Shown one piece after another: positions 2,601-57,781 of a stretch of DNA of 64,000 bases (within the stretch, counting starts at the first letter, position 1; the number at the start of each line of letters is the position of its first letter). Location: positions 7,244,541-7,308,540 of the forward strand of contig OX459103.1 of NCBI GenBank assembly GCA_949775045.1. The letters run 5' to 3'. Origin of the DNA: Metridium senile. Lineage: Eukaryota; Cnidaria; Anthozoa; Actiniaria; Metridiidae. The position numbers and the translations under genes are program-made. A model generated the notes under the pieces. The model was not told the DNA's origin, did no database searches, and saw only the letters and a program-made list of their open reading frames with translations.

Positions 2601-2883
2601 CTGAAAAACATATCGCGATAAGCCTTAAAAAACATCCACAGCCTTTAACAAATATATCCTGCTCCGAAGAATTGCCCATAGTCCCTATTAAATTGCTAAT
2701 GGACCGTCCCTTCCAGGTTAGGGCAACGGATTGATTTTACCGTGGCACATTTACAAGTAGCGTTGCGTGACAAAACAAACTTCCCGGTCCGTCTGATAGA
2801 ACCCAGTACTTTAACCTTGCATTGCGTAATTGGTCCCACCATCTAGATTATTCACATCTTACTAAATCAGTCTAGCTAGAGCC

Positions 2884-5800
2884 ATGTCCTTGTACACCTC
2901 TATCTTGTTGCTGTTCTTAATGACAGTAACTTGCTCGTACGCCACAAACTTCACCAATGTTGTTAACACCGAATATGGACCGGTCAGGGGCAAGATCGTC
3001 CAACTCTCGAACGGCCAACTTGTAAACAACTACCTTGCCTTCCCCTTTGCTCAAGCCAATCGCTATGAACGACCTACAGGCCCTAAGAAGTGGACTGAAG
3101 TTTTGAATGCTACAGAACATGGAGTTATGTGCCCTCAATTTCTAATTCCCGGCCTGCCTCCGACGATGGTGCCAAGCGAAGATTGTCTCACTGTTAGCGT
3201 CTATGCACCGGCTTCTGCCAAGGAGGATTCAAACCTTCCCGTAATGCATTGGATTCATGGAGGAGGGTACATGTTTGGATTCATGTCTTTGTACGATGGG
3301 AGTTTCTTAGCAGCGGATAGGAATGTCATCGTTGTGGAGACTCAGTACCGAGTTGGATCGTTTGGCTGGTTGAGTACTGGGACGAAAGAGTTACCGGGGA
3401 ATTATGGCTTGTTTGATATGCTTCAGGGCTTGAAATGGACCAAACAAAACATCAAGAAGTAAGTTATCATTATCATAATTTCAAATTTCTCCTCCCTCTT
3501 TCAAATCTACTTTTAAAATAGCATGATAAGGATTGACCACAGGTAGCCCAAGCTAACTGTTAGTGTTGATTTCAATACTAAGGAATATATATGGGAACTT
3601 TTGATCCTTCGATTTTTACCTTAAAGTTTAATGAAATTTAATAAAACTCTTACAGTGTCTTCTTGTTGATCTTTTTAATCCTCCTTTAGTAAATCAGGGT
3701 TTGTGCTACATGCATGTGGATTGACATTTATATACATGTACTTTATATTACAAAATCCAGATTTTTGAATCAGTCCTTTAAAAATTAAACTATTAAAAGT
3801 CTTTCAAAACAATCTATGTCCCGAAACATGTGATGCGAAATTCATTTGAATTTTAAAACATGTTGAAATGTTGATTTTTTTTTTAATCAAATGAAGAACT
3901 ATTTATATTGTAACCTTTATTAATATCTTTCACGCACCAATGGTTCCTTTGTAATTTTAATATTACAACATTCTTATGTTGTTAAGTGCATGTCATGCAA
4001 GTCATCTACTAGAAGTATGATTTATAGACACTTGGCTTTTACAGGTGTTGGTATTGTCATGCTAATTTGCAAAACATTTGCACAATATATTTTTAGATTT
4101 TCTATGTTCTACAAACATGCAAGGGCATAACAAACTATGTCACTGTACGTTTATGTATTAGTATGAGACAGACCTAGCCTCCTCCGCATGCAACTCTTGA
4201 CTCTGGGCTTCCTTTGTTGACTCTGGGCTTCCTGTGGCGGAACAAATGGTGGGGGGAGGGGGTGAGGGAGAGAGAAAAGAAGAAGAGGAGTTTTTATTTG
4301 GGGCCCATTCCTCTCTGGTTCGCATGGTAAAGGAAACCCAGCAGGGGACAAAGGAAACCCAGCAGGGTTGCATGCGGAGGAGGCTAAGACAGACCCTGAG
4401 GATGGTCATGGCTAGGGTTGGTTGCGGTCGTTTGCACCTATCCTTTTAACAGTTGCAACAAAAAGCATGTTCTGTCTAGACGTAAACTTTCAAAGTATGA
4501 CGCCAAACTGGCACTCTCCTAATGCGATTCTCTAAATAATTCAATTTGTTGAGGAAAATTTTGCATGTTTTATTTTTGTCATATATTTTAAGAGGTTTAG
4601 ATGCAAGTGTAGTACATATCAATTAGTTTTAAGACTCTGAGTGTTGCTCCAGCAAAGGAGTGAATCCCACACCCTCACCCCACATGTAACTCCTCAATGT
4701 GTCATCATCATCATCATAATCATCATTGCAATCAACTAACTTATTACACTTTTTCATGTATTTCTATTTGTAATTTTATTTAAATTATTCAAATTGTATT
4801 TTCTTTATTTGTTATAAAGTGTGTGAATAAAATTCAATTCAATTCAATTCAATAATATTTTGTAGGTTTGGTGGAGATCCTGATAAAGTGACCATATTTG
4901 GCCAATCAGCAGGCGGAATGGCTGTAGCAACATTGATGCTGTCACCACTTACTGAAGGATTATTTAAGAATGTTATCATCCAGAGTGGATATGCTAACAT
5001 GTTATTGGCAGTGATGGAACCAACTGAAGCATTAGAATCGGCCAAGTAAGCACTTTAGTACACCTATAGACTAAATCGAAATATGGCGACCTGCTATTGT
5101 TCTTGACTGACTAGCCTCGTGTTCATGATGAAATACAATGGAGTTTTCACATGAATGAGAGGCTAGTGAGTCAAGAACAATTGTTATTCAAATTGGTGGC
5201 CATATTTCGATTTGGTGTATATTATTATTACTATTCTGTTGAGTATCAGGGTCTTGTGAAGGAGAGGGAAAAGGGAAGCCCTTTCCTCTCCTCATTCCTC
5301 TTTGAAGGTCTGACCCAAAGGCTATATCAAGTGTGAATGACAGGGATTTGTGCCAAAAAAATATTGCCTCATTCAATAACCTATTTTCTGTCTACCCTTC
5401 TTTTTCTTCTAGTCTCTTCCTTTCCTTTCATTTCCTTCCTTTCATTATTTCCTTTCTTCCACCCTTCCACCCTTCTATCCTTGTTTCCACCCTTCCTTTC
5501 GTCCTTCCTTCCTTCCTTCCTTCCTTCCTTCCTTCCTTCCTTCCTTCCTTCCTTCCTTCCTTCCTTCCTTCCTTCCTTCCTTCCTTCCTTCCTTCCTTCC
5601 TTCCTTCCTTCTTTCCTTCCTTCCTTCCTTCCTTCCTTCTTTTCTTCCTTCCCCAAACCCAGGAGGGAAGAATAATAACCAACACCAAAAATAACTATAT
5701 ATACACTTTACACCTAGGTTTTAAATTAAAACCTCTAACACCAACAGCCTACATCAAGACAATTATATACAGTACACCCAGATGATGAATCCTCATCCAA

Positions 5801-8800
5801 ACATGCACCTACAATCATTGACAAAACTGTTGGCACGATTGTTGATTTTGTTATGTTCCTATATCTGTAATACCCCCCCTCCCCCTGTCAATGTTGCTGG
5901 AGGGGTATATGAACCTTGTCAATCGCGGGAAACATTTCCAACTCTTGTACTCTTTCATGAAAAACAGCAACATTGTATTGGGGGAGGGGGGTAGACAAAC
6001 TTATCCTCATAAATGAAAAAAATGATAGACCCACAAAAAAGTGTCCGAAATGTGATCGTGCCAACACATTTTGGCAATGATTGTCTGAGGGACATATTGT
6101 GGAATTTCATTAAAAATAAACGAGTAAGAGGTCAGAAGCGTTCCTAATTACAAGCTATGCCTCGAAAGGAAAAGATTGATATGTAATATGTGTATATCCG
6201 ACCCCTAACGATATGAAAACTAGTGGAAATGTCATTTTGCCGTAGCAACCCTTATATTTAAGTGCGAAATTATGCCAACGTAACAAGGGGATACACCAAA
6301 AAAATATTTTAAAAGGTCTCTAACTTAATAGAATGAAGTAATTATCAGAAAAGATATCATCACCTTCACAGTTAATCCAATAATAACCACGTTCTCTTTA
6401 AACAATGATTTTCTTATCAACTACATCTTATGTAAATACCTACGAATGTGAAGTTACTTTTGACGTATATGCTATAATTGACGCGCCTCAAAATTGCTAC
6501 ATTTTGTACGTAATAGCGCAAACGTCACATATTGCAAAAGATGCACGTCACTGGTTTGGTACATTATAAAAGTTGTGCATTTGTAAAATAAATCTCATAC
6601 TTCAAAGCGTTATACATAAAGAACATTATACAACAACTGAGCAGAAAACGTCTATTTGAAGTTCACATTGTGATCATGGCAGAGTCAATGCCGAATCGTT
6701 CGCAACGTTTGGTCTATTTAGTTACATACAGTCGAGCAGATCCCGAAAAAGTCCATTCTCGTGAATCGTTTGCAAATATTGTTCGTAATGCATGGGGTAC
6801 ATCAACGACATCGCGTATTGTACAGTTTATAGTCGCTAAAGAAGAGCATAATATATATCTATACTATACTACATAGATATCTATACTACATAGATATATA
6901 TATCTATACTTATACTATAGATATAAATATATTTATTATCTCTATACAGAGATAATACATTAAAGAAAACATTGTTTGTATAGACATGACGTCTGTAATG
7001 TGTCATTCAACACCATGTGCGCTTGTATATAGTTGTCCGTGAAATAGCAACGGTTCTCCACTGTTAAATAATAGATTACTCCCCAAATTAAACAAATATC
7101 CCTCCAATTTTTTCAACAATAGGGTTTGTATATATTCTTTAATTGTCTGACGTTTAGTTTATATTTCAAATTGTAGTATTTAACTCAAAACCAACGGTAC
7201 TCCACGTTGAATCACTTATAAAAAGATGAAGACATGTTCAAAACAATTAATACAAGTTTTGTGTGGAGTACCGTTGATAAAATGGGCATGTTAGGCTTTT
7301 TGAATATAATTTCTGTAGGAAATAGTTAGAATAAACATCAATAAAACATTGATCAAGGTCTAAGCTCTTTTTATTGTTGCACTTAGTGAATCATTACGAT
7401 TTTACAATGGAGTACCGTGTTCTGCACAGAAGACACTGCACACTATATAAATACTGATTACGTGACAACAATGTGATTGTGAAAATATCAATTTCATAAG
7501 ACAGTGAAGAGAGTGAAAATGGTCTTTAAAGGCAAAATGGATGTACTAATACAAGGTAGTAAATCTAATATTTAGTTCTTAATCCCTTGGATTTAATAAT
7601 ATCTTCAAGTCGTTTGGGAATGCTTTGAATAGTTTTGTCTATGACAGTTGTATCAAACGAATATAAAGTATCAATAACACGTTCTTTAAAAGTTTCAAAA
7701 TTCTCTTTAAGAATATTTTGCTCTATAGCATCATTATTTATTTTTCTTTTAACTAAATTAAAAATATTTTCAATCGGATTTAGGTCTGGAGACCTTGCAG
7801 GAATACACACCATTGTAGCCTTTGATTTTTTTAGTGCTTTTTTAGCTAATGAGCTATTTTGACTAGGATCGTTGTCCATAACAAATTTTCTGGCTTTGGT
7901 TTTTGAAAACTTTTTGAAAATGTTTTCAAAATTTCTAGTAATAAAGTCAGCGAAATACTCGCCATCCATTTTGTGGTATTGTTCAATAAAAATAGCACCT
8001 TGTCTATAACTAATAAGAACCAAAAGGTGGAGCCTTCTTCCTCCTGCTAGACTCTTCGAACCCTTAGATGTTATTTGTAATCCCTCATTTCTTTTTCTCC
8101 AAACCCTCCCTTTAGGACTCATTGCATTTGCTTTCGGATTGTACTTATGAATAAAAGAAACTCCGTCAAGATAAAATACCATGTCCTCCGTCCAATAGTT
8201 TGGTGTAGTTTTCAATGTTTTAACATTGTCTTTTGCAAATTTAAGTCTTTTTTTTCTGTCAGATTCACTGATTAGTCCCTTTCTTCTTGTCTGTAAACTC
8301 TTGTACCCTAATCTTTGTATTTCTCTGAGGTAAGTCCGGTAGCTTGTTTTCCGCTGCGAAAGCCCGCAATACTCTATTAAAGATTTCACTGTAAAATTTA
8401 CGTCCTCTTTCCTGATCCTTTTGATTCCCCTGGATAGAATTCTTCTTTCTCTGTCAGTTAAGTTAGTCTTTCTTCCCAACTTACTTTTCTTGTCGGGTTG
8501 TTTTGAATTCCGCTTCATTTTGTTTAAACCAATTCTTCTTACACTGCTTTTTGATATAGAACACATCTCTGCTATTTCCGAAAGAGAGTATGTGTTTTTT
8601 CTAAACAGAACATACGCTCTGGCACATTTATAGGCATTAATCTTGCCTTTGAAGACCATTTTCACCCTCTCCAAACGTTGATATCTTCACAATGACGTGT
8701 ATTGTTGCGTACGCCTTAAGCGCGTGCATTTTTGGGCGTTACTATGGTTATCCAATTTTGCGCGAGCTATAGTATAAATATATCAACTACGAAGCATATA

Positions 8801-11800
8801 TGTGTTAAGGACTGCTTATTACCTTAGAACATTTATTTTGAACACGGGTGTTATCGAATATAGAGCATATAAGTGTCTTGTCATGTAAATTTTACATTCA
8901 TTTAAAGCACTTTAAACAAAAGTGACGTCACATGATAGTATTAACTTCTTTCTGGAAAAAAAATTGCTACTGTTCAAATCGGTACACTATGTACTTTGTG
9001 TCCTGAAAATTTCATATCATTTCCACAACAATGTCAATGGCGTTTTAAGTCATATGTGTCTCAGACAATCATTGACAAAACTGTTGGCACGATTGTTGAT
9101 TTTGTTATGTTCCTATATCTGTAATACCCCCCCTCCCCCTGTCAATGTTGCTGGAGGGGTATATGAACCTTGTCATCACCTTCACAGTTAATCCAATAAT
9201 AACCACGTTCTCTTTAAACAATGATTTTCTTATCAACTACATCTTATGTAAATACCTACGAATGTGAAGTTACTTTTGACGTATATGCTATAATTGACGC
9301 GCCTCAAAATTGCTACATTTTGTACGTAATAGCGCAAACGTCACATATTGCAAAAGATGCACGTCACTGGTTTGGTACATTATAAAAGTTGTGCATTTGT
9401 AAAATAAATCTCATACTTCAAAGCGTTATACATAAAGAACATTATACAACAACTGAGCAGAAAACGTCTATTTGAAGTTCACATTGTGATCATGGCAGAG
9501 TCAATGCCGAATCGTTCGCAACGTTTGGTCTATTTAGTTACATACAGTCGAGCAGATCCCGAAAAAGTCCATTCTCGTGAATCGTTTGCAAATATTGTTC
9601 GTAATGCATGGGGTACATCAACGACATCGCGTATTGTACAGTTTATAGTCGCTAAAGAAGAGCATAATATATATCTATACTATACTACATAGATATCTAT
9701 ACTACATAGATATATATATCTATACTTATACTATAGATATAAATATATTTATTATCTCTATACAGAGATAATACATTAAAGAAAACATTGTTTGTATAGA
9801 CATGACGTCTGTAATGTGTCATTCAACACCATGTGCGCTTGTATATAGTTGTCCGTGAAATAGCAACGGTTCTCCACTGTTAAATAATAGATTACTCCCC
9901 AAATTAAACAAATATCCCTCCAATTTTTTCAACAATAGGGTTTGTATATATTCTTTAATTGTCTGACGTTTAGTTTATATTTCAAATTGTAGTATTTAAC
10001 TCAAAACCAACGGTACTCCACGTTGAATCACTTATAAAAAGATGAAGACATGTTCAAAACAATTAATACAAGTTTTGTGTGGAGTACCGTTGATAAAATG
10101 GGCATGTTAGGCTTTTTGAATATAATTTCTGTAGGAAATAGTTAGAATAAACATCAATAAAACATTGATCAAGGTCTAAGCTCTTTTTATTGTTGCACTT
10201 AGTGAATCATTACGATTTTACAATGGAGTACCGTGTTCTGCACAGAAGACACTGCACACTATATAAATACTGATTACGTGACAACAATGTGATTGTGAAA
10301 ATATCAATTTCATAAGACAGTGAAGAGAGTGAAAATGGTCTTTAAAGGCAAAATGGATGTACTAATACAAGGTAGTAAATCTAATATTTAGTTCTTAATC
10401 CCTTGGATTTAATAATATCTTCAAGTCGTTTGGGAATGCTTTGAATAGTTTTGTCTATGACAGTTGTATCAAACGAATATAAAGTATCAATAACACGTTC
10501 TTTAAAAGTTTCAAAATTCTCTTTAAGAATATTTTGCTCTATAGCATCATTATTTATTTTTCTTTTAACTAAATTAAAAATATTTTCAATCGGATTTAGG
10601 TCTGGAGACCTTGCAGGAATACACACCATTGTAGCCTTTGATTTTTTTAGTGCTTTTTTAGCTAATGAGCTATTTTGACTAGGATCGTTGTCCATAACAA
10701 ATTTTCTGGCTTTGGTTTTTGAAAACTTTTTGAAAATGTTTTCAAAATTTCTAGTAATAAAGTCAGCGAAATACTCGCCATCCATTTTGTGGTATTGTTC
10801 AATAAAAATAGCACCTTGTCTATAACTAATAAGAACCAAAAGGTGGAGCCTTCTTCCTCCTGCTAGACTCTTCGAACCCTTAGATGTTATTTGTAATCCC
10901 TCATTTCTTTTTCTCCAAACCCTCCCTTTAGGACTCATTGCATTTGCTTTCGGATTGTACTTATGAATAAAAGAAACTCCGTCAAGATAAAATACCATGT
11001 CCTCCGTCCAATAGTTTGGTGTAGTTTTCAATGTTTTAACATTGTCTTTTGCAAATTTAAGTCTTTTTTTTCTGTCAGATTCACTGATTAGTCCCTTTCT
11101 TCTTGTCTGTAAACTCTTGTACCCTAATCTTTGTATTTCTCTGAGGTAAGTCCGGTAGCTTGTTTTCCGCTGCGAAAGCCCGCAATACTCTATTAAAGAT
11201 TTCACTGTAAAATTTACGTCCTCTTTCCTGATCCTTTTGATTCCCCTGGATAGAATTCTTCTTTCTCTGTCAGTTAAGTTAGTCTTTCTTCCCAACTTAC
11301 TTTTCTTGTCGGGTTGTTTTGAATTCCGCTTCATTTTGTTTAAACCAATTCTTCTTACACTGCTTTTTGATATAGAACACATCTCTGCTATTTCCGAAAG
11401 AGAGTATGTGTTTTTTCTAAACAGAACATACGCTCTGGCACATTTATAGGCATTAATCTTGCCTTTGAAGACCATTTTCACCCTCTCCAAACGTTGATAT
11501 CTTCACAATGACGTGTATTGTTGCGTACGCCTTAAGCGCGTGCATTTTTGGGCGTTACTATGGTTATCCAATTTTGCGCGAGCTATAGTATAAATATATC
11601 AACTACGAAGCATATATGTGTTAAGGACTGCTTATTACCTTAGAACATTTATTTTGAACACGGGTGTTATCGAATATAGAGCATATAAGTGTCTTGTCAT
11701 GTAAATTTTACATTCATTTAAAGCACTTTAAACAAAAGTGACGTCACATGATAGTATTAACTTCTTTCTGGAAAAAAAATTGCTACTGTTCAAATCGGTA

Positions 11801-14800
11801 CACTATGTACTTTGTGTCCTGAAAATTTCATATCATTTCCACAACAATGTCAATGGCGTTTTAAGTCATATGTGTCTCAGACATGTCTGAGGGACATATT
11901 GTGGAATTTCATTAAAAATAAACGAGTAAGAGGTCAGAAGCGTTCCTAATTACAAGCTATGCCTCGAAAGGAAAAGATTGATATGTAATATGTGTATATC
12001 CGACCCCTAACGATATGAAAACTAGTGGAAATGTCATTTTGCCGTAGCAACCCTTATATTTAAGTGCGAAATTATGCCAACGTAACAAGGGGATACACCA
12101 AAAAAATATTTTAAAAGGTCTCTAACTTAATAGAATGAAGTAATTATCAGAAAAGATATCATCACCTTCACAGTTAATCCAATAATAACCACGTTCTCTT
12201 TAAACAATGATTTTCTTATCAACTACATCTTATGTAAATACCTACGAATGTGAAGTTACTTTTGACGTATATGCTATAATTGACGCGCCTCAAAATTGCT
12301 ACATTTTGTACGTAATAGCGCAAACGTCACATATTGCAAAAGATGCACGTCACTGGTTTGGTACATTATAAAAGTTGTGCATTTGTAAAATAAATCTCAT
12401 ACTTCAAAGCGTTATACATAAAGAACATTATACAACAACTGAGCAGAAAACGTCTATTTGAAGTTCACATTGTGATCATGGCAGAGTCAATGCCGAATCG
12501 TTCGCAACGTTTGGTCTATTTAGTTACATACAGTCGAGCAGATCCCGAAAAAGTCCATTCTCGTGAATCGTTTGCAAATATTGTTCGTAATGCATGGGGT
12601 ACATCAACGACATCGCGTATTGTACAGTTTATAGTCGCTAAAGAAGAGCATAATATATATCTATACTATACTACATAGATATCTATACTACATAGATATA
12701 TATATCTATACTTATACTATAGATATAAATATATTTATTATCTCTATACAGAGATAATACATTAAAGAAAACATTGTTTGTATAGACATGACGTCTGTAA
12801 TGTGTCATTCAACACCATGTGCGCTTGTATATAGTTGTCCGTGAAATAGCAACGGTTCTCCACTGTTAAATAATAGATTACTCCCCAAATTAAACAAATA
12901 TCCCTCCAATTTTTTCAACAATAGGGTTTGTATATATTCTTTAATTGTCTGACGTTTAGTTTATATTTCAAATTGTAGTATTTAACTCAAAACCAACGGT
13001 ACTCCACGTTGAATCACTTATAAAAAGATGAAGACATGTTCAAAACAATTAATACAAGTTTTGTGTGGAGTACCGTTGATAAAATGGGCATGTTAGGCTT
13101 TTTGAATATAATTTCTGTAGGAAATAGTTAGAATAAACATCAATAAAACATTGATCAAGGTCTAAGCTCTTTTTATTGTTGCACTTAGTGAATCATTACG
13201 ATTTTACAATGGAGTACCGTGTTCTGCACAGAAGACACTGCACACTATATAAATACTGATTACGTGACAACAATGTGATTGTGAAAATATCAATTTCATA
13301 AGACAGTGAAGAGAGTGAAAATGGTCTTTAAAGGCAAAATGGATGTACTAATACAAGGTAGTAAATCTAATATTTAGTTCTTAATCCCTTGGATTTAATA
13401 ATATCTTCAAGTCGTTTGGGAATGCTTTGAATAGTTTTGTCTATGACAGTTGTATCAAACGAATATAAAGTATCAATAACACGTTCTTTAAAAGTTTCAA
13501 AATTCTCTTTAAGAATATTTTGCTCTATAGCATCATTATTTATTTTTCTTTTAACTAAATTAAAAATATTTTCAATCGGATTTAGGTCTGGAGACCTTGC
13601 AGGAATACACACCATTGTAGCCTTTGATTTTTTTAGTGCTTTTTTAGCTAATGAGCTATTTTGACTAGGATCGTTGTCCATAACAAATTTTCTGGCTTTG
13701 GTTTTTGAAAACTTTTTGAAAATGTTTTCAAAATTTCTAGTAATAAAGTCAGCGAAATACTCGCCATCCATTTTGTGGTATTGTTCAATAAAAATAGCAC
13801 CTTGTCTATAACTAATAAGAACCAAAAGGTGGAGCCTTCTTCCTCCTGCTAGACTCTTCGAACCCTTAGATGTTATTTGTAATCCCTCATTTCTTTTTCT
13901 CCAAACCCTCCCTTTAGGACTCATTGCATTTGCTTTCGGATTGTACTTATGAATAAAAGAAACTCCGTCAAGATAAAATACCATGTCCTCCGTCCAATAG
14001 TTTGGTGTAGTTTTCAATGTTTTAACATTGTCTTTTGCAAATTTAAGTCTTTTTTTTCTGTCAGATTCACTGATTAGTCCCTTTCTTCTTGTCTGTAAAC
14101 TCTTGTACCCTAATCTTTGTATTTCTCTGAGGTAAGTCCGGTAGCTTGTTTTCCGCTGCGAAAGCCCGCAATACTCTATTAAAGATTTCACTGTAAAATT
14201 TACGTCCTCTTTCCTGATCCTTTTGATTCCCCTGGATAGAATTCTTCTTTCTCTGTCAGTTAAGTTAGTCTTTCTTCCCAACTTACTTTTCTTGTCGGGT
14301 TGTTTTGAATTCCGCTTCATTTTGTTTAAACCAATTCTTCTTACACTGCTTTTTGATATAGAACACATCTCTGCTATTTCCGAAAGAGAGTATGTGTTTT
14401 TTCTAAACAGAACATACGCTCTGGCACATTTATAGGCATTAATCTTGCCTTTGAAGACCATTTTCACCCTCTCCAAACGTTGATATCTTCACAATGACGT
14501 GTATTGTTGCGTACGCCTTAAGCGCGTGCATTTTTGGGCGTTACTATGGTTATCCAATTTTGCGCGAGCTATAGTATAAATATATCAACTACGAAGCATA
14601 TATGTGTTAAGGACTGCTTATTACCTTAGAACATTTATTTTGAACACGGGTGTTATCGAATATAGAGCATATAAGTGTCTTGTCATGTAAATTTTACATT
14701 CATTTAAAGCACTTTAAACAAAAGTGACGTCACATGATAGTATTAACTTCTTTCTGGAAAAAAAATTGCTACTGTTCAAATCGGTACACTATGTACTTTG

Positions 14801-17800
14801 TGTCCTGAAAATTTCATATCATTTCCACAACAATGTCAATGGCGTTTTAAGTCATATGTGTCTCAGACAATCATTGACAAAACTGTTGGCACGATTGTTG
14901 ATTTTGTTATGTTCCTATATCTGTAATACCCCCCCTCCCCCTGTCAATGTTGCTGGAGGGGTATATGAACCTTGTCATCACCTTCACAGTTAATCCAATA
15001 ATAACCACGTTCTCTTTAAACAATGATTTTCTTATCAACTACATCTTATGTAAATACCTACGAATGTGAAGTTACTTTTGACGTATATGCTATAATTGAC
15101 GCGCCTCAAAATTGCTACATTTTGTACGTAATAGCGCAAACGTCACATATTGCAAAAGATGCACGTCACTGGTTTGGTACATTATAAAAGTTGTGCATTT
15201 GTAAAATAAATCTCATACTTCAAAGCGTTATACATAAAGAACATTATACAACAACTGAGCAGAAAACGTCTATTTGAAGTTCACATTGTGATCATGGCAG
15301 AGTCAATGCCGAATCGTTCGCAACGTTTGGTCTATTTAGTTACATACAGTCGAGCAGATCCCGAAAAAGTCCATTCTCGTGAATCGTTTGCAAATATTGT
15401 TCGTAATGCATGGGGTACATCAACGACATCGCGTATTGTACAGTTTATAGTCGCTAAAGAAGAGCATAATATATATCTATACTATACTACATAGATATCT
15501 ATACTACATAGATATATATATCTATACTTATACTATAGATATAAATATATTTATTATCTCTATACAGAGATAATACATTAAAGAAAACATTGTTTGTATA
15601 GACATGACGTCTGTAATGTGTCATTCAACACCATGTGCGCTTGTATATAGTTGTCCGTGAAATAGCAACGGTTCTCCACTGTTAAATAATAGATTACTCC
15701 CCAAATTAAACAAATATCCCTCCAATTTTTTCAACAATAGGGTTTGTATATATTCTTTAATTGTCTGACGTTTAGTTTATATTTCAAATTGTAGTATTTA
15801 ACTCAAAACCAACGGTACTCCACGTTGAATCACTTATAAAAAGATGAAGACATGTTCAAAACAATTAATACAAGTTTTGTGTGGAGTACCGTTGATAAAA
15901 TGGGCATGTTAGGCTTTTTGAATATAATTTCTGTAGGAAATAGTTAGAATAAACATCAATAAAACATTGATCAAGGTCTAAGCTCTTTTTATTGTTGCAC
16001 TTAGTGAATCATTACGATTTTACAATGGAGTACCGTGTTCTGCACAGAAGACACTGCACACTATATAAATACTGATTACGTGACAACAATGTGATTGTGA
16101 AAATATCAATTTCATAAGACAGTGAAGAGAGTGAAAATGGTCTTTAAAGGCAAAATGGATGTACTAATACAAGGTAGTAAATCTAATATTTAGTTCTTAA
16201 TCCCTTGGATTTAATAATATCTTCAAGTCGTTTGGGAATGCTTTGAATAGTTTTGTCTATGACAGTTGTATCAAACGAATATAAAGTATCAATAACACGT
16301 TCTTTAAAAGTTTCAAAATTCTCTTTAAGAATATTTTGCTCTATAGCATCATTATTTATTTTTCTTTTAACTAAATTAAAAATATTTTCAATCGGATTTA
16401 GGTCTGGAGACCTTGCAGGAATACACACCATTGTAGCCTTTGATTTTTTTAGTGCTTTTTTAGCTAATGAGCTATTTTGACTAGGATCGTTGTCCATAAC
16501 AAATTTTCTGGCTTTGGTTTTTGAAAACTTTTTGAAAATGTTTTCAAAATTTCTAGTAATAAAGTCAGCGAAATACTCGCCATCCATTTTGTGGTATTGT
16601 TCAATAAAAATAGCACCTTGTCTATAACTAATAAGAACCAAAAGGTGGAGCCTTCTTCCTCCTGCTAGACTCTTCGAACCCTTAGATGTTATTTGTAATC
16701 CCTCATTTCTTTTTCTCCAAACCCTCCCTTTAGGACTCATTGCATTTGCTTTCGGATTGTACTTATGAATAAAAGAAACTCCGTCAAGATAAAATACCAT
16801 GTCCTCCGTCCAATAGTTTGGTGTAGTTTTCAATGTTTTAACATTGTCTTTTGCAAATTTAAGTCTTTTTTTTCTGTCAGATTCACTGATTAGTCCCTTT
16901 CTTCTTGTCTGTAAACTCTTGTACCCTAATCTTTGTATTTCTCTGAGGTAAGTCCGGTAGCTTGTTTTCCGCTGCGAAAGCCCGCAATACTCTATTAAAG
17001 ATTTCACTGTAAAATTTACGTCCTCTTTCCTGATCCTTTTGATTCCCCTGGATAGAATTCTTCTTTCTCTGTCAGTTAAGTTAGTCTTTCTTCCCAACTT
17101 ACTTTTCTTGTCGGGTTGTTTTGAATTCCGCTTCATTTTGTTTAAACCAATTCTTCTTACACTGCTTTTTGATATAGAACACATCTCTGCTATTTCCGAA
17201 AGAGAGTATGTGTTTTTTCTAAACAGAACATACGCTCTGGCACATTTATAGGCATTAATCTTGCCTTTGAAGACCATTTTCACCCTCTCCAAACGTTGAT
17301 ATCTTCACAATGACGTGTATTGTTGCGTACGCCTTAAGCGCGTGCATTTTTGGGCGTTACTATGGTTATCCAATTTTGCGCGAGCTATAGTATAAATATA
17401 TCAACTACGAAGCATATATGTGTTAAGGACTGCTTATTACCTTAGAACATTTATTTTGAACACGGGTGTTATCGAATATAGAGCATATAAGTGTCTTGTC
17501 ATGTAAATTTTACATTCATTTAAAGCACTTTAAACAAAAGTGACGTCACATGATAGTATTAACTTCTTTCTGGAAAAAAAATTGCTACTGTTCAAATCGG
17601 TACACTATGTACTTTGTGTCCTGAAAATTTCATATCATTTCCACAACAATGTCAATGGCGTTTTAAGTCATATGTGTCTCAGACAATCATTGACAAAACT
17701 GTTGGCACGATTGTTGATTTTGTTATGTTCCTATATCTGTAATACCCCCCCTCCCCCTGTCAATGTTGCTGGAGGGGTATATGAACCTTGTCAATCGCGG

Positions 17801-20800
17801 GAAACATTTCCAACTCTTGTACTCTTTCATGAAAAACAGCAACATTGTATTGGGGGAGGGGGGTAGACAAACTTATCCTCATAAATGAAAAAAATGATAG
17901 ACCCACAAAAAAGTGTCCGAAATGTGATCGTGCCAACACATTTTGGCAATGATTGTCTGAGGGACATATTGTGGAATTTCATTAAAAATAAACGAGTAAG
18001 AGGTCAGAAGCGTTCCTAATTACAAGCTATGCCTCGAAAGGAAAAGATTGATATGTAATATGTGTATATCCGACCCCTAACGATATGAAAACTAGTGGAA
18101 ATGTCATTTTGCCGTAGCAACCCTTATATTTAAGTGCGAAATTATGCCAACGTAACAAGGGGATACACCAAAAAAATATTTTAAAAGGTCTCTAACTTAA
18201 TAGAATGAAGTAATTATCAGAAAAGATATCATCACCTTCACAGTTAATCCAATAATAACCACGTTCTCTTTAAACAATGATTTTCTTATCAACTACATCT
18301 TATGTAAATACCTACGAATGTGAAGTTACTTTTGACGTATATGCTATAATTGACGCGCCTCAAAATTGCTACATTTTGTACGTAATAGCGCAAACGTCAC
18401 ATATTGCAAAAGATGCACGTCACTGGTTTGGTACATTATAAAAGTTGTGCATTTGTAAAATAAATCTCATACTTCAAAGCGTTATACATAAAGAACATTA
18501 TACAACAACTGAGCAGAAAACGTCTATTTGAAGTTCACATTGTGATCATGGCAGAGTCAATGCCGAATCGTTCGCAACGTTTGGTCTATTTAGTTACATA
18601 CAGTCGAGCAGATCCCGAAAAAGTCCATTCTCGTGAATCGTTTGCAAATATTGTTCGTAATGCATGGGGTACATCAACGACATCGCGTATTGTACAGTTT
18701 ATAGTCGCTAAAGAAGAGCATAATATATATCTATACTATACTACATAGATATCTATACTACATAGATATATATATCTATACTTATACTATAGATATAAAT
18801 ATATTTATTATCTCTATACAGAGATAATACATTAAAGAAAACATTGTTTGTATAGACATGACGTCTGTAATGTGTCATTCAACACCATGTGCGCTTGTAT
18901 ATAGTTGTCCGTGAAATAGCAACGGTTCTCCACTGTTAAATAATAGATTACTCCCCAAATTAAACAAATATCCCTCCAATTTTTTCAACAATAGGGTTTG
19001 TATATATTCTTTAATTGTCTGACGTTTAGTTTATATTTCAAATTGTAGTATTTAACTCAAAACCAACGGTACTCCACGTTGAATCACTTATAAAAAGATG
19101 AAGACATGTTCAAAACAATTAATACAAGTTTTGTGTGGAGTACCGTTGATAAAATGGGCATGTTAGGCTTTTTGAATATAATTTCTGTAGGAAATAGTTA
19201 GAATAAACATCAATAAAACATTGATCAAGGTCTAAGCTCTTTTTATTGTTGCACTTAGTGAATCATTACGATTTTACAATGGAGTACCGTGTTCTGCACA
19301 GAAGACACTGCACACTATATAAATACTGATTACGTGACAACAATGTGATTGTGAAAATATCAATTTCATAAGACAGTGAAGAGAGTGAAAATGGTCTTTA
19401 AAGGCAAAATGGATGTACTAATACAAGGTAGTAAATCTAATATTTAGTTCTTAATCCCTTGGATTTAATAATATCTTCAAGTCGTTTGGGAATGCTTTGA
19501 ATAGTTTTGTCTATGACAGTTGTATCAAACGAATATAAAGTATCAATAACACGTTCTTTAAAAGTTTCAAAATTCTCTTTAAGAATATTTTGCTCTATAG
19601 CATCATTATTTATTTTTCTTTTAACTAAATTAAAAATATTTTCAATCGGATTTAGGTCTGGAGACCTTGCAGGAATACACACCATTGTAGCCTTTGATTT
19701 TTTTAGTGCTTTTTTAGCTAATGAGCTATTTTGACTAGGATCGTTGTCCATAACAAATTTTCTGGCTTTGGTTTTTGAAAACTTTTTGAAAATGTTTTCA
19801 AAATTTCTAGTAATAAAGTCAGCGAAATACTCGCCATCCATTTTGTGGTATTGTTCAATAAAAATAGCACCTTGTCTATAACTAATAAGAACCAAAAGGT
19901 GGAGCCTTCTTCCTCCTGCTAGACTCTTCGAACCCTTAGATGTTATTTGTAATCCCTCATTTCTTTTTCTCCAAACCCTCCCTTTAGGACTCATTGCATT
20001 TGCTTTCGGATTGTACTTATGAATAAAAGAAACTCCGTCAAGATAAAATACCATGTCCTCCGTCCAATAGTTTGGTGTAGTTTTCAATGTTTTAACATTG
20101 TCTTTTGCAAATTTAAGTCTTTTTTTTCTGTCAGATTCACTGATTAGTCCCTTTCTTCTTGTCTGTAAACTCTTGTACCCTAATCTTTGTATTTCTCTGA
20201 GGTAAGTCCGGTAGCTTGTTTTCCGCTGCGAAAGCCCGCAATACTCTATTAAAGATTTCACTGTAAAATTTACGTCCTCTTTCCTGATCCTTTTGATTCC
20301 CCTGGATAGAATTCTTCTTTCTCTGTCAGTTAAGTTAGTCTTTCTTCCCAACTTACTTTTCTTGTCGGGTTGTTTTGAATTCCGCTTCATTTTGTTTAAA
20401 CCAATTCTTCTTACACTGCTTTTTGATATAGAACACATCTCTGCTATTTCCGAAAGAGAGTATGTGTTTTTTCTAAACAGAACATACGCTCTGGCACATT
20501 TATAGGCATTAATCTTGCCTTTGAAGACCATTTTCACCCTCTCCAAACGTTGATATCTTCACAATGACGTGTATTGTTGCGTACGCCTTAAGCGCGTGCA
20601 TTTTTGGGCGTTACTATGGTTATCCAATTTTGCGCGAGCTATAGTATAAATATATCAACTACGAAGCATATATGTGTTAAGGACTGCTTATTACCTTAGA
20701 ACATTTATTTTGAACACGGGTGTTATCGAATATAGAGCATATAAGTGTCTTGTCATGTAAATTTTACATTCATTTAAAGCACTTTAAACAAAAGTGACGT

Positions 20801-23800
20801 CACATGATAGTATTAACTTCTTTCTGGAAAAAAAATTGCTACTGTTCAAATCGGTACACTATGTACTTTGTGTCCTGAAAATTTCATATCATTTCCACAA
20901 CAATGTCAATGGCGTTTTAAGTCATATGTGTCTCAGACAATCATTGACAAAACTGTTGGCACGATTGTTGATTTTGTTATGTTCCTATATCTGTAATACC
21001 CCCCCTCCCCCTGTCAATGTTGCTGGAGGGGTATATGAACCTTGTCAATCGCGGGAAACATTTCCAACTCTTGTACTCTTTCATGAAAAACAGCAACATT
21101 GTATTGGGGGAGGGGGGTAGACAAACTTATCCTCATAAATGAAAAAAATGATAGACCCACAAAAAAGTGTCCGAAATGTGATCGTGCCAACACATTTTGG
21201 CAATGATTGTCTGAGGGACATATTGTGGAATTTCATTAAAAATAAACGAGTAAGAGGTCAGAAGCGTTCCTAATTACAAGCTATGCCTCGAAAGGAAAAG
21301 ATTGATATGTAATATGTGTATATCCGACCCCTAACGATATGAAAACTAGTGGAAATGTCATTTTGCCGTAGCAACCCTTATATTTAAGTGCGAAATTATG
21401 CCAACGTAACAAGGGGATACACCAAAAAAATATTTTAAAAGGTCTCTAACTTAATAGAATGAAGTAATTATCAGAAAAGATATCATCACCTTCACAGTTA
21501 ATCCAATAATAACCACGTTCTCTTTAAACAATGATTTTCTTATCAACTACATCTTATGTAAATACCTACGAATGTGAAGTTACTTTTGACGTATATGCTA
21601 TAATTGACGCGCCTCAAAATTGCTACATTTTGTACGTAATAGCGCAAACGTCACATATTGCAAAAGATGCACGTCACTGGTTTGGTACATTATAAAAGTT
21701 GTGCATTTGTAAAATAAATCTCATACTTCAAAGCGTTATACATAAAGAACATTATACAACAACTGAGCAGAAAACGTCTATTTGAAGTTCACATTGTGAT
21801 CATGGCAGAGTCAATGCCGAATCGTTCGCAACGTTTGGTCTATTTAGTTACATACAGTCGAGCAGATCCCGAAAAAGTCCATTCTCGTGAATCGTTTGCA
21901 AATATTGTTCGTAATGCATGGGGTACATCAACGACATCGCGTATTGTACAGTTTATAGTCGCTAAAGAAGAGCATAATATATATCTATACTATACTACAT
22001 AGATATCTATACTACATAGATATATATATCTATACTTATACTATAGATATAAATATATTTATTATCTCTATACAGAGATAATACATTAAAGAAAACATTG
22101 TTTGTATAGACATGACGTCTGTAATGTGTCATTCAACACCATGTGCGCTTGTATATAGTTGTCCGTGAAATAGCAACGGTTCTCCACTGTTAAATAATAG
22201 ATTACTCCCCAAATTAAACAAATATCCCTCCAATTTTTTCAACAATAGGGTTTGTATATATTCTTTAATTGTCTGACGTTTAGTTTATATTTCAAATTGT
22301 AGTATTTAACTCAAAACCAACGGTACTCCACGTTGAATCACTTATAAAAAGATGAAGACATGTTCAAAACAATTAATACAAGTTTTGTGTGGAGTACCGT
22401 TGATAAAATGGGCATGTTAGGCTTTTTGAATATAATTTCTGTAGGAAATAGTTAGAATAAACATCAATAAAACATTGATCAAGGTCTAAGCTCTTTTTAT
22501 TGTTGCACTTAGTGAATCATTACGATTTTACAATGGAGTACCGTGTTCTGCACAGAAGACACTGCACACTATATAAATACTGATTACGTGACAACAATGT
22601 GATTGTGAAAATATCAATTTCATAAGACAGTGAAGAGAGTGAAAATGGTCTTTAAAGGCAAAATGGATGTACTAATACAAGGTAGTAAATCTAATATTTA
22701 GTTCTTAATCCCTTGGATTTAATAATATCTTCAAGTCGTTTGGGAATGCTTTGAATAGTTTTGTCTATGACAGTTGTATCAAACGAATATAAAGTATCAA
22801 TAACACGTTCTTTAAAAGTTTCAAAATTCTCTTTAAGAATATTTTGCTCTATAGCATCATTATTTATTTTTCTTTTAACTAAATTAAAAATATTTTCAAT
22901 CGGATTTAGGTCTGGAGACCTTGCAGGAATACACACCATTGTAGCCTTTGATTTTTTTAGTGCTTTTTTAGCTAATGAGCTATTTTGACTAGGATCGTTG
23001 TCCATAACAAATTTTCTGGCTTTGGTTTTTGAAAACTTTTTGAAAATGTTTTCAAAATTTCTAGTAATAAAGTCAGCGAAATACTCGCCATCCATTTTGT
23101 GGTATTGTTCAATAAAAATAGCACCTTGTCTATAACTAATAAGAACCAAAAGGTGGAGCCTTCTTCCTCCTGCTAGACTCTTCGAACCCTTAGATGTTAT
23201 TTGTAATCCCTCATTTCTTTTTCTCCAAACCCTCCCTTTAGGACTCATTGCATTTGCTTTCGGATTGTACTTATGAATAAAAGAAACTCCGTCAAGATAA
23301 AATACCATGTCCTCCGTCCAATAGTTTGGTGTAGTTTTCAATGTTTTAACATTGTCTTTTGCAAATTTAAGTCTTTTTTTTCTGTCAGATTCACTGATTA
23401 GTCCCTTTCTTCTTGTCTGTAAACTCTTGTACCCTAATCTTTGTATTTCTCTGAGGTAAGTCCGGTAGCTTGTTTTCCGCTGCGAAAGCCCGCAATACTC
23501 TATTAAAGATTTCACTGTAAAATTTACGTCCTCTTTCCTGATCCTTTTGATTCCCCTGGATAGAATTCTTCTTTCTCTGTCAGTTAAGTTAGTCTTTCTT
23601 CCCAACTTACTTTTCTTGTCGGGTTGTTTTGAATTCCGCTTCATTTTGTTTAAACCAATTCTTCTTACACTGCTTTTTGATATAGAACACATCTCTGCTA
23701 TTTCCGAAAGAGAGTATGTGTTTTTTCTAAACAGAACATACGCTCTGGCACATTTATAGGCATTAATCTTGCCTTTGAAGACCATTTTCACCCTCTCCAA

Positions 23801-26800
23801 ACGTTGATATCTTCACAATGACGTGTATTGTTGCGTACGCCTTAAGCGCGTGCATTTTTGGGCGTTACTATGGTTATCCAATTTTGCGCGAGCTATAGTA
23901 TAAATATATCAACTACGAAGCATATATGTGTTAAGGACTGCTTATTACCTTAGAACATTTATTTTGAACACGGGTGTTATCGAATATAGAGCATATAAGT
24001 GTCTTGTCATGTAAATTTTACATTCATTTAAAGCACTTTAAACAAAAGTGACGTCACATGATAGTATTAACTTCTTTCTGGAAAAAAAATTGCTACTGTT
24101 CAAATCGGTACACTATGTACTTTGTGTCCTGAAAATTTCATATCATTTCCACAACAATGTCAATGGCGTTTTAAGTCATATGTGTCTCAGACAATCATTG
24201 ACAAAACTGTTGGCACGATTGTTGATTTTGTTATGTTCCTATATCTGTAATACCCCCCCTCCCCCTGTCAATGTTGCTGGAGGGGTATATGAACCTTGTC
24301 AATCGCGGGAAACATTTCCAACTCTTGTACTCTTTCATGAAAAACAGCAACATTGTATTGGGGGAGGGGGGTAGACAAACTTATCCTCATAAATGAAAAA
24401 AATGATAGACCCACAAAAAAGTGTCCGAAATGTGATCGTGCCAACACATTTTGGCAATGATTGTAGGTTTAACCATTCAAACCCTAACTGACCAAAACCT
24501 TTTTTCCAAGACTGCACACACCCAGATATCTAGGAACTATCACTGCTCACACCATGTGTTTTATTCATCTCTCCTTTTAGAGCATTTGGGGTCTTTTCAA
24601 GACTGCACACACCCAGATATCTAGGAACTATAACTGTGCATACCATGTGTTTTATTCATCTCTCCTTTTAGAGTATTTGGGGTCTTTTCAAGACTGCACA
24701 CACCCAGATATCTAGGAACTATCACTGCTTACACCATGTGTTTTATTCATCTCTCCTTTAAGAGCATTTGGGGTCTTTTCAAGACTGCACACACCCAGAT
24801 ATCTAGGAACTATCACTGCTTACACCATGTGTTTTATTCATCTCCTTTTAGAGCATTTGGGGTCTTTTCAAGACTACATACACCCTGAGGATGAACCATC
24901 ATCACATACACCTGGGTTTACACCATTCAAACATCAAACACTAACTGACCAAAACCCTTTTCCAAGACTGTATCCACCCAGATAACCAGGAACTATCACT
25001 GCTCACACCATGTGTTTTATTTATCTCCTCTTAGAGCACTTGGGGAGAAGTGTGGCTGTAATTAATCAATAATCAAATTTATATAGCGCATATTCCATTA
25101 AGTACTGATATGATGTGTGTAAGAAGTAGGCAGGCAAATGGCAATGGAATGCAGAAAGGTGCTAATTGTGCATTGTCTAATCCGTCCATCTCATTGGTTA
25201 AAGCATGAAAATCTGCCATAATTTCAAAACTAAGCGGATTTTTTAATATTTTATTTGATATCTGATTCCCTTTTCATCTAGTTAAGATTTCCTGATCCTT
25301 TATATATCAAAATTTCTATGTGGGGAACATATCAAATTGTAAACATCTTTTGGCTATTGTTTTGAGCGCTTATGATTGGACGAGATCTTTTAGTACAAAA
25401 GAAACTTTGTTCCAAAACAGAGTTTTTGCACATTTTATTTTTAAAATGTGTTACCTATAGGCTGATATACTTTCAGTCTGAAAACTGAGACATTCTTATG
25501 TGGGGAGGTTGCTATTGCCGCAGAACAATAGAAAGTTGCCTACTTCTTTCACACATCATTACTTAAATGTAATGACATATATGTTTTATTTATCTCCTCT
25601 TAGAGCACTTGGGAAAAATTGTGGCTGTAATGACATGTCAAATCTGAAGGAATGCCTTAGCAAGCAGTCAATGACAGATCTAGTAGCGAGACAATCACTG
25701 ATACCTGCAAGAGAGTTTCTTGCTGTGTTTTCACCTGTTGTAGATGGCGACTTCTTGCCTGGTGAGTAGTAAAACATTAAATAACTGTTATTATTTAGTA
25801 TATACACAATTCACAACCTCATAAGAACGTGCGCTCTTATTGGTTCGCTATCTAAGGATATTAGACCATATCTACTGCTGAAGCTTGTGCGCGTCTTGTC
25901 ACACTTTGTAATATTACACAATAAATTATTATTTTATACAAGAATTTTCATTTCTTTATTTTGAAAAGAGATATAAGACATGCCTGCGGAGGAGCCTATA
26001 TCTGATAATAATTAATTTTAAATATATCTTAAAATATCCTGAAATAATAATAAATTACAATTAAATAAATAGTTTAAATATTTTAAAATTTAGAGCAAAA
26101 ATAAAGCAAACTAACATTATCAAAATGTACAAGGCTAACTATAAAATAATAAAAATGATATTTCTGCCTATTGTTTATCATGATAGCTTCCCTATTAATT
26201 TTATATTTTATTTTTCAAATTGATTTAAAAGCAACAATACTAATATCAACACTATATTTTAGTGTTTCTTAAATTCCAAATATGAGGACTTCTAAAATCT
26301 ACTAATCAATCACAAGCTATTTACACAATGCACTTGGCCTTTTACAAATCAAGTAAAGGGTACTAGTACTAGTTTCCCTAATAAATGTAATTAAGAAATG
26401 AACCTCATAATTAAATAGAGCACATCAAGATATGCAAGATTCCTGAGTTTGGTTGTATTTGGTTGTATTCTGATCAAGGTATAGCCTCATAAAAATGACT
26501 AAAAATAGAATAGAATGGGACGCTTGTCCTTCCAATCCATACATTCCTTTGTAATTTTGGGCAGTTTTGAATGGCTGTAACTCACTCAATATCCAACCAA
26601 AAGCACCAAATCTCCTAAATCTTACATATCTTGAACTGCTCTTTTATATTATGAGGTTCATTTCTTAACTACATTAATTAGGAAAAACTAGTACCCAGTC
26701 CTTTACTCATTTTGGAAAAGGAGAATAGGATAACTGATCATTTTTTGTTATGATCATCAATATACCATCATGCATGGTTGTTATCATGATCATCAGACAT

Positions 26801-29800
26801 GATCATCATCATTATTTGCATCATCATTATTGTCATCAACAACATCATGATCATCACTGCCATCATCATTGTTATCATGGTCATCATTTATCATCATCAT
26901 TTGTATCATCATTATTGTTATCATGAACATCATTAAACATTACATCATCGTTTGTATCATTATATTCATCATGAGTATCATGATCATCACCATACCATCA
27001 TTGTTATCATGGTCATCATTTATCATCATCATCATTATCATCATTTGTATCATTATATTATCATCATGATCATCACTATCATCACCATTTTGTCAATATA
27101 CTGTGATATAACCACTCTGGCAACTGTACATCACTCCAACCTCGTTCCCAGGGCCCTCTCCCTTCGCGCGAAGGGAGAGGGCCCTGGAAACGAGGTTGTA
27201 CATCACTCGAATAGTCAAAGATACACTTGGCTATGCTTCAGGGTTCTTTACGACTTCTATCTTGCTCTACAGCTCCCTGCGTGTTCACATCCCAGTATAT
27301 ATATAGACACGTGCTCCGTTTTATATTTCTTTAACTATATATTCAATTATTTGTAACAGGCTATTATTTTCCACAGATCTTCCAACGAATCTAATTGCTA
27401 AGGGTAACTTCAGGAAGACAAATGTTATTGTTGGTTTTACTGATGATGATGGTGGTACTCTCCTAGCCACAGCACCAGGTACACTATGGTTAGTCCAGGG
27501 ATGGGAAACTTTGGGCAGGGGCAGATCTGGGTGGTGTCCCTAGTGGCACCAGACAACCCCCCCCCCTCCCCCTAGCGCTGCAATTACATCTATTATATTT
27601 AAGACATCAAGGGACCAGACACCCCCTAACACCACAAGAGGATTATTTGCAATTTGGACACCCCTGACAAATTTCTGGGTCCTCCCCTGTTGGGACACTT
27701 AAGTTTCCAACCTCAAGCATGTATTTTACGATCTTCTCAACCTCAGCAAAGCTTAAGAAGTCGGGATGGATGTCTACGGGATCAGGTCATAATTCATACG
27801 AGATATGCACTGAATGTTTTAAAAATACTTTTATAAACTGGTGTTTGTTAAAACTTTTAAGTTAACAGGGGGGGGGGGGCTGATAATGCCCCCAGGGCAC
27901 ACAAAACAATAGAGTTATCCCGGCTAGCAGGGACAACTCGCCTTCGTATAAACAGCCCCTAATTTAGTGTTTTCACTCCCTCGCCCTCTTCTCATCCTCT
28001 TTGGAACCATGCATGAACAATTTGTTTTCTTTCTTAGCAATGTTTCGTGGGCTTCCAACTGACAATGGAACTACGCGAGAAGACTTCTTAAAGTACATGA
28101 ACAGGACTAAATTTGTACGAGGACAGAATAGCAAGGTCGTCGACGCCATTATCAATGAATATACTGACAAAAACGACGTTGACAATATTAACAAGACTAG
28201 AAGGTAAAATTAAAGTGATTTCCTTCCGCATTTTCAAGTATTGGAAAACTAATTAACAATTATTCGCTGAAAGCGAGGAAAGTCGAGGTTATTATTAACC
28301 AATACTCATTGAGCCTGAGGAGAATAATTGTTTTAGTATCTCGTAGTCGTAGTCGTAGTTGCAGTCGCAGTCGCAGTAGTAGTAGAAACTATATAGTCTA
28401 CATTTTCTTGCACTGGCGAAGGAAATTTACTTAAGTATTAACTCTTCGTACATAAATGTTTTTAAAAATAATGTATCTGAAATTAAAGGTGGAGAGAGAA
28501 TGGAAAGAGTAAGCGAGACCTGAAGAAACTACTGGTCTGAATGGGAAGTGTTGGTCAAACTTGGATTAAATTCCAAAGAATTTCTAAGAACATAAATGAC
28601 TTAGAAACCAGGGCTTTGGTGACGCTGCGCATAGACAATAGGTGGACGTACAGTGACGTGGTTTGTTTTAATTTTTACAACCAACCATTGCTATTAGAAC
28701 AAGGATAATTGTTCTATTGTTAAAATGGTTGGCAAATTAGCACCACAATACTGACCAACACTTGTAAACACAACGCTCACCTGTAAGCAGAATAACATCT
28801 AATTTTAGTATCAATAGAAACTAGCGAGTAAACTAGTATAGGCTGCGTCGGTGTTTGATATAAACAATAGGTTAAGTCAACATTTTTCACGGTGTTACAA
28901 ATTTCATTATATTACCTATAATTTTTGTATCATTTCTTTTAGGAGTTTGTTCGAACTTACTACTGATATGGGGTTCAGGGTACCAGCTTTGGTCGCATCA
29001 CAGGCCTTTGCGAAAAAAGGAATGAACACATTCGTCTACCAGTTCGATTACAGACTTCCTTTGCTGTTTGATCGTAAAAGCACACCAGCTTGGATGGGTG
29101 CATATCATGGTGCTGATCTCCCTTACACTTTTGGCACTGAGGCACCATTTCTCAGTTTCGCGGCAGGTTTTGGTAAAGAAAGTCAAGACTTTGGAGTATT
29201 GTTTAGAACCTATCTCAAGAACTTTGTTGCAACGGGGTTTGTATATACGTTTTCTAATTTCCTGCCTCTGACTTTATTTTGTGACTTTAAAAGATACAGA
29301 CGTTTCGGTCTGTACCACTCAGTATCCGTTATCATCATCATGATTATTTTTATCATCATTAGTTTCATGGATAATATCATCACCATGCATCATTATCTTT
29401 ATCATTATATCTTTATTATATCGTTATCATTAATGTTATCATTATCTTATCTTATAATTATCGTTAGGAGGGGCGATCCATTTGATATTTGACGGGGGGG
29501 AGGGGGGGGGGGGGGGGCAAGAAATTTCTTTTAGCCCGCTGGCAAGCGCTAGAAATTTTTTTTGGTAACGTTACAAAGATTTTAGTGGAGATATCTCCTT
29601 GCACTTAATGTTTTTCGACTCTATCTTTCGGGCCGTGCACGAAATGTTTTTTCAAAATCTTCCAACACCCCCTCCCCCCTCCTCAAAATTCAAATGAGTC
29701 GCCCCTTATCATTATCATTATATTATTATCATTATCGTTATCATTATTTATATCATCAGAATGCCGTTTATTTTTTTAATCAATCATTGGCATCGAGAAC

Positions 29801-57770: not shown

Positions 57771-57781
57771 GATTGTTAAGA

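Follow-up and report, generated by a model that had tools for sequence, protein, structure and literature searches.

An element combining a replication initiator protein (Rep) of viral type with a transposase was described in the truffle Tuber melanosporum, whose geminivirus-like transposon carries, within inverted ends, a Rep-like gene, transposase open reading frames (ORFs) and a microsatellite (Liu et al. 2011, PMC3198968). According to the part of that paper devoted to the element, its Rep genes or their remnants number 42 and, with one exception, closely resemble each other; the reconstructed copy shows interrupted or truncated ORFs and 37-bp terminal inverted repeats, and a target duplication is not obvious (PMC3198968). 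The Tc1-like transposon Bari1 is reported to form head-to-tail arrays with roughly 80 and with six copies (PMC8834629), and there are reports of tandem arrays of miniature inverted-repeat transposable elements (MITEs) in a coral (PMC2872659) and of high-copy integration for the capsid-encoding RepE1 cressviruses of sea anemones (PMC11071296). Here we analysed a stretch of 64,000 nucleotides of the sea anemone Metridium senile (assembly GCA_949775045.1, contig OX459103.1, positions 7,244,541 to 7,308,540; hereafter the window), in which a first-pass annotation had reported six head-to-tail copies of an intact Tc1-type transposon inside a host intron. Judged from sequence, the element is made of a 272-bp block, here termed R, a Rep gene and a Tc1-type transposase gene, and the window array is a Rep-deleted derivative of it. 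With a probability of about 0.57, we propose that Rep would make rolling-circle concatemers at R, and that the transposase would cut two R blocks and insert R(body-R)k. Both genes, R at both ends, the TA duplication at CTAG, the arrays, the footprint-like junctions and three families of the element can all be read in the DNA itself.

The array spans positions 5812–24463 and is formed by six head-to-tail modules, with start-to-start spacings of 2816, 2986, 2816, 3254 and 3254; the sequence shared by all six is identical, and such identity over kilobases excludes chance. R, a quasi-palindrome present at both array ends and at most module junctions, makes the array terminally redundant, R1 opening it (5812–6083, plus strand) and a further, identical R closing it (24192–24463, plus). 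On the left the sequence reads ...CACCTA followed by CAATCATTG, with the left TA of the target at 5810–5811, and on the right CAATGATTG is followed by TAG, with the right TA at 24464–24465; the target site is CTAG, with TA doubled. Modules 1, 5 and 6 consist of R plus a 2982-bp body from which Rep is mostly deleted, namely R1 with B1 (6084–9065), R5 (17684–17955) with B5 (17956–20937) and R6 (20938–21209) with B6 (21210–24191), all on the plus strand and with B5 and B6 identical to B1. Module 2 (9066–11881, plus) and the identical module 4 (14868–17683, plus) have one common 438-bp deletion, which removed most of R and the body start and leaves the initial ~110 nt of R joined to the body through a 3-bp microhomology. 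In module 3, the body (B3, 11886–14867, plus, identical to B1) is preceded by the four nucleotides CATG (11882–11885, plus) instead of R, resembling an excision footprint.

The same transposase ORF is found on the minus strand of each module (7565–8659, 10381–11475, 13367–14461, 16183–17277, 19437–20531 and 22691–23785, the last four placed by offset). It matches the Pfam family DDE_3 (E 2.6e-14) and the Sleeping Beauty (SB100X) chain 5cr4 (E 2.6e-11), and shows DD34E spacing with D163, D260 and E295 invariant in 17 sequences. DD34E transposase, inverted ends and TA target duplication (two family-1 left edges, ATA and CAA, differ) are those of Tc1/mariner elements. Six copies, a Tc1-type DD34E transposase in each and a TA-bounded block had all been claimed in the first-pass annotation and were confirmed; its description of the modules as alike holds over the shared sequence but not for the deletion in modules 2 and 4 and the missing R of module 3. 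Inverted copies of the start of the transposase gene and of its upstream sequence lie downstream of that gene (window 7473–7543 and 8635–8696; 85% over 39 nt and 72% over 36 nt), as if promoter and first codons had been copied.

The window modules are not complete elements. The genome searched comprises 389 Mb in 169 contigs; only the best candidates of each search were scored, and the counts given below are lower bounds. Pieces of the module had at least 136 matches (34 of 356 candidates scored), and 31 of the 39 units that were read hold, at an AT-rich stretch near unit position 1041, an extra 1.3 to 1.6 kb which is lacking in the window and completes a Rep gene of 447 codons, on the strand opposite to the transposase; in module 1 only an N-terminal remnant of it is left (6676–6876, plus). 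The eight units without an intact Rep are four full window bodies, three single copies and one copy with a broken Rep. The full unit measures ~4.3 kb and has two genes, both reading outward from R, and the listing of one full unit gave no capsid-like ORF and no frame above 98 aa besides these two. When a relative was used as query, Rep was open in all 88 copies scored (of 389 candidates). The Rep-deleted derivative occurs at four or more loci (the window and L001–L003), which suggests that it moved after Rep was lost. What had been called an intact Tc1-type transposon does have its transposase ORF in each module, yet it belongs to a composite of Rep and transposase; Rep had been missed because no other copies were at hand for comparison. 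The guess of a possible replicative or circular-concatemer origin is judged right, although it did not foresee the two-gene nature of the element and how common its arrays are.

Rep has the architecture of an HUH nickase followed by a superfamily 3 (SF3) helicase, as in the Reps of single-stranded DNA (ssDNA) viruses and in particular of circular Rep-encoding ssDNA (CRESS-DNA) viruses. Among 39 Rep relatives, Parvo_NS1 was matched by 16 and the papillomavirus E1 helicase by 13 (E 0.01 or better), and the best viral fold matches were papillomavirus E1 and parvovirus NS1. The family-1 Rep itself had no Pfam match above cut-off and no meaningful sequence match in PDB, where the A1 profile retrieved only SIRV1 ORF119 (E 0.26) and papillomavirus E1 (E 0.46); PHROGs gave nothing of note. 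With Foldseek, the top matches of the whole Rep model were Rep68 chains of adeno-associated virus (AAV) and the helicase half was closest to AAV Rep40, whereas the rows covering the nickase half only were Reps of circular viruses, in a list that leaves parvovirus nickases possible.

R folds far better than its shuffled versions (-52.8 kcal/mol, z -6.9, none of 200 shuffles as good), forming one long hairpin with inner C-rich and G-rich arms, and its ends, CAATCATTG and CAATGATTG, are the transposon ends. When the unit is drawn as a circle, R falls between the starts of Rep and the transposase gene, which is where circular ssDNA viruses carry their origin. We take R to be both the putative replication origin and the carrier of both transposase end sequences. 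The long hairpin, which has counterparts in two other families (see below), and the AAV-like fold of Rep would also suit a parvovirus-like rolling-hairpin mode, with R acting as a terminal hairpin comparable to the AAV inverted terminal repeat and the arrays being integrated concatemers of a linear replicon. Hairpin transfer, however, should flip R relative to the body, parvovirus ends occurring in flip and flop orientation, and R has the orientation of the body in 36 of 36 copies. With no flipped R, and with a nickase half resembling that of circular viruses, we regard this mode as improbable, even if AAV is reported to integrate often as head-to-tail concatemers (PMC5714925).

Two other interpretations of R were set aside. 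An independent dispersed MITE is not supported, as each of 42 R copies has a further R or a Rep no more than 10 kb away, in a list that covers two contigs (40 of 276 candidates scored) and comes after an earlier R query which favoured R adjoining a body. A geminivirus-type nonanucleotide was dropped, only TATTAC being seen by eye. At C1:18199738-18201930 the distance between two R blocks is just 1.9 kb, which may reflect a strongly shortened derivative.

Further Rep families, likewise arranged in long arrays, came up when a more distant relative was the query: contig C11 has 17 copies, spaced mostly near 3975 and 3796, and other runs lie on C14, C7, C3 and C152, spaced by 4183 or somewhat less (of 394 candidates, 88 were scored; for two of the families, a single unit each was read). 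Compared with family 1, to which the window array belongs, family 2 shows 51% identity in Rep and 46% in the transposase, with an R-like hairpin between them (z -5.1), and family 3 shows 45% and 42%, with a hairpin of z -5.4. In all three families the hairpin has CAATC/GATTG at its ends; CAATGTTG comes after a C-rich arm, and CAACATTG together with a G-rich arm forms the counterpart. In families 2 and 3, CTA stands at the left edge in 7/7 cases and TAG at the right edge in 6/6, the expected right edge of one family-3 array (L062) being excluded as no element was present there, and five family-2 insertions (one array and four single copies) and one family-3 single copy were found to begin and end with R. 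The family-3 rows contain one internal TAA (one row also a TAG), likewise some others; Rep is open for 440 aa in the unit read.

Beyond this genome, ten Rep/transposase pairs were found on contigs of the same size and source, against a mean of 0.36 and a maximum of 2 when sizes were shifted by 1–100 either way (contigs of at least 3400 bases; 84 Rep and 112 transposase relatives; best 120 of 217, 676 and 947 matches). An earlier test based on size only had been weak (seven shared sizes versus a shifted mean of 1.75 and maximum of 6), its seventh pair (1617) being too short for two genes and of differing sources. Ten public contigs thus appear to carry Rep and transposase together. One of them, of 4213, corresponds to the family-2 unit of 4183 (Rep 440/440, transposase 367/368), which provides a check of the pairing method and also indicates that this or a closely related species is the source of some of the contigs. 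Where a relative carries the name of an organism, it is that of a coral, a soft coral or a sea anemone. As in the truffle composite, one mobile unit carries both genes.

Single copies have the form R-body-R and arrays the form R(body-R)k. In family 1, R is followed by TAG at the right edge in 15 of 15 loci (two with common flanks), and left edges bearing R read CTA in 10 of 11 loci (one ATA) and in nine of ten further loci (one CAA), the latter from a set of 20 R blocks of which 10 lay between two bodies; locus C15b, without a left R, was excluded from the left-edge count, and the left edges of three stitched loci fall outside the stretches covered. Inside the arrays, 17 junctions lack R and read CAG (6), CTG (6), CAT (3) or CATG (2). 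Such sequences would be left if R, or a longer piece bounded by R, had been excised with 3' overhangs of the CA end, an event that we infer. The alternation of A and T resembles the footprint type of Sleeping Beauty, the overhang of Tc1 being 2 nt. Sleeping Beauty footprints are reported to match 3-nt 3' overhangs (PMC7827188).

Where R is kept at internal family-1 junctions, it abuts AGA and TCT, with no TA on both sides. A transposase and a TA target being present, the modules might have been nested or abutting independent insertions at the same site; the absence of TA on both sides of R, together with the shared haplotype and the constant orientation within arrays, refutes this for the family-1 arrays read and leaves it next to no probability. 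Two double-R junctions, in which the R blocks overlap by nine bases, were observed at C2:7814144-7814658 and C2:7818983-7819497.

Arrays of the element are common, and they are dispersed over many contigs: 77 of the 88 scored Rep copies fall in 16 multi-copy loci (neighbours within 10.5 kb) and 11 stand alone. The genome search for solo copies and other arrays proposed in the first-pass annotation thus retrieved both. Units of one array differ by a mean of 0.42 (72 pairs) and units of different loci by 3.77 (393 pairs), none of 2000 permutations being as good, and unit lengths differ by 4.9 within arrays versus 67 between loci. The comparison used 4058 gap-free columns of 31 full-length units from 10 loci, after dropping eight of the 39 rows (four window units, three Rep-less single copies and one broken-Rep copy). 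Such likeness indicates that an array derives mostly from one template, even if the C2 array mixes two close haplotypes. About 150 kb at C2:37344457-37496142 are dense in family-1 units of both orientations, a possible young satellite region.

A locus on C4 (C4:19944511-19957954, 3 units) and one on C2 (C2:7760309-7850175, at least 13 units) share flanks which are identical over the 1809 and 200 bases compared; flank samples taken 2 kb and 5 kb out matched at 500 and 371 of 500 bases, and four samples at ~20 kb and ~100 kb out were out of register. It looks as if a host segment had been duplicated together with an insertion that it contained, or as if the duplicate were due to the assembly, and the difference in unit number means that arrays change after insertion or that the assembly is at fault. 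The assembler may, more generally, have expanded single copies, as the perfect identity of the modules and a false duplication at C4/C2 would allow. We consider this highly improbable, given that the window array has internal landmarks (the deletion common to modules 2 and 4 and one R-less junction), that R-less junctions are of four types, that haplotypes and unit lengths are locus-specific, that single copies were assembled as single with their own flanks, and that arrays occur in three families. The exclusion of an assembly duplication, which had been asked for at the outset, is thus reached as a judgement of unlikelihood.

As the strongest alternative, the arrays could have grown in place, from a single R-body-R copy inserted by the transposase, through unequal exchange or replication slippage between R repeats or bodies, Rep being uninvolved. 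R is indeed a direct repeat in 36 of 36 counted copies, single copies and arrays can share a haplotype, an apparently single insertion is present twice with 3 and with at least 13 units, the deletion shared by modules 2 and 4 is what the duplication of a two-module block would give, and the window array has no Rep. This explanation leaves without reason, however, the direct terminal R blocks of single copies, each with both transposase ends, and the presence of arrays in all three divergent families sharing Rep (only Rep-bearing families were compared); we regard it as rather unlikely on its own.

In the cycle that we favour, Rep would act at R of an integrated R-body-R copy, releasing the unit and amplifying it into head-to-tail concatemers, and nicking at R, circles and concatemers, as well as the order of events, are conjectured from the structures described. 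Having an origin in each R, an R-body-R copy could release circles and leave the donor site in place, since replicational release of genomes from tandem copies is reported for geminiviruses and circoviruses (PMC3187698). The transposase would then cut two R blocks, one at its left end and one at its right, and insert R(body-R)k into CTAG with duplication of TA; k would equal 1 in a single copy and range from 2 to 10 or more in an array. Subsequent excision by the transposase from within an array, whether of R or of R(body-R)k, might account for C(A/T)G, CAT and CATG, and exchange between R repeats would further change k; exchange or excision probably adds to the Rep mechanism. The Rep-deleted window array would need Rep from other copies.

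Several observations weigh against this cycle. No circle, concatemer or nick site was seen, the activity of Rep and the origin role of R being putative, and the IMG/VR scans found no relative. Rep is absent from the window array and from three single copies. Solo R insertions (k = 0), perhaps to be expected, number 0 of 42 among the R copies listed; R is missing at one left edge and CTA at two, and in the family-3 unit TAG follows R inside the array too. Footprints are mixed within one array, showing that arrays are not pristine concatemers, and the C4 and C2 loci differ in unit number and junction types despite identical flanks. Finally, within-array likeness and terminal R would also fit unequal exchange.

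With regard to the surroundings, the window array sits in an intron of a carboxylesterase gene, as had been proposed, because open stretches matching PF00135 flank it on the same plus strand. Two lie upstream (2881–3462, E 6.5e-61; 4831–5046, E 2.7e-18) and two downstream (25482–25766, E 3.4e-5, below the Pfam cut-off; 28842–29489, E 1.2e-11), and they cover profile positions 3–176, 177–229, 234–291 and 380–472 in order. A 91-bp tandem repeat of 4.2 copies (window 24503–24885) begins ~40 bases past the array. Elsewhere in the window, tandem repeat units of 167/335 and 483 bp extend across 5 kb (54061–59016), two decamer repeats, CCCGGAACAC and TTCCGGGGTG, mutual reverse complements up to rotation, lie 1.4 kb apart (46541–46639 and 48013–48088), and EGF-like repeats were recognised by eye in open stretches of the minus strand (36214–38081).

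We hold at even odds the wider claim that these are animal DNA transposons with a two-enzyme cycle, in which a Rep of ssDNA-virus type copies concatemers and a Tc1 transposase integrates whole concatemers at CTAG. If true, it would be at once a copy-and-paste Tc1 element and a replicon of CRESS type that exchanged its capsid for a transposase, if it ever had a capsid, and it would let a mobile element turn directly into a tandem repeat, so that an intronic tandem repeat could be seeded in a single event. It would join two replication worlds that are usually separate, cut-and-paste transposition and the rolling-circle replication of ssDNA viruses, offering a testable answer to how cut-and-paste elements multiply and form arrays and a sequence-level case for virus-transposon exchange in animals.

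Among known systems, CRESS-DNA viruses have an intergenic block with a hairpin, and their two genes point away from it on either side. The element shares this layout and the HUH plus SF3 Rep, and differs from the RepE1 cressviruses in having a transposase, no capsid-like ORF and a TA duplication on integration. Helitrons and Replitrons are HUH-type mobile elements of eukaryotes, and Helitrons insert without target duplication or inverted ends. Unlike Helitrons, our element has inverted ends, TA duplication, a DDE transposase and an SF3 helicase in its Rep. A transposase or integrase is joined to a replication module in Polintons. A comparable coupling is reported for Teratorn, which combines piggyBac and a herpesvirus (PMC10175614). 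The element resembles both in this coupling and departs from them in its two genes within ~4.3 kb, its Rep of ssDNA-virus type and its Tc1 transposase. Vespertilioviruses, bacterial filamentous viruses that are reported to use IS3 and IS30 transposases to replicate (PMC6668415), likewise represent an ssDNA virus lineage with an insertion-sequence transposase; they are bacterial and without Rep, whereas both enzymes are present here. With Tc1/mariner elements such as Tc1, Sleeping Beauty and Bari1, the element shares DD34E, inverted ends and TA duplication, its R-less junctions being footprint-like, and it is set apart from them by Rep as a second gene, by ends contained in a quasi-palindromic block repeated directly and by common, dispersed arrays. 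The closest precedent is the truffle element, also with a Rep-like gene and transposase ORFs between inverted ends; section 8 of the paper describing it does not mention arrays (PMC3198968), and here we deal with an animal, an open Rep with a DD34E transposase, R at both ends, TA duplication at CTAG, arrays and three families. No description of an animal Rep and Tc1 element in arrays was found among the titles and opening lines of abstracts searched in the open-licence literature, or in the papers cited here. We therefore rate the decayed Rep-plus-transposase composite of truffle and the Bari1 arrays as known already, and an animal element which joins Rep to a Tc1 transposase and occurs in arrays as what is new here.

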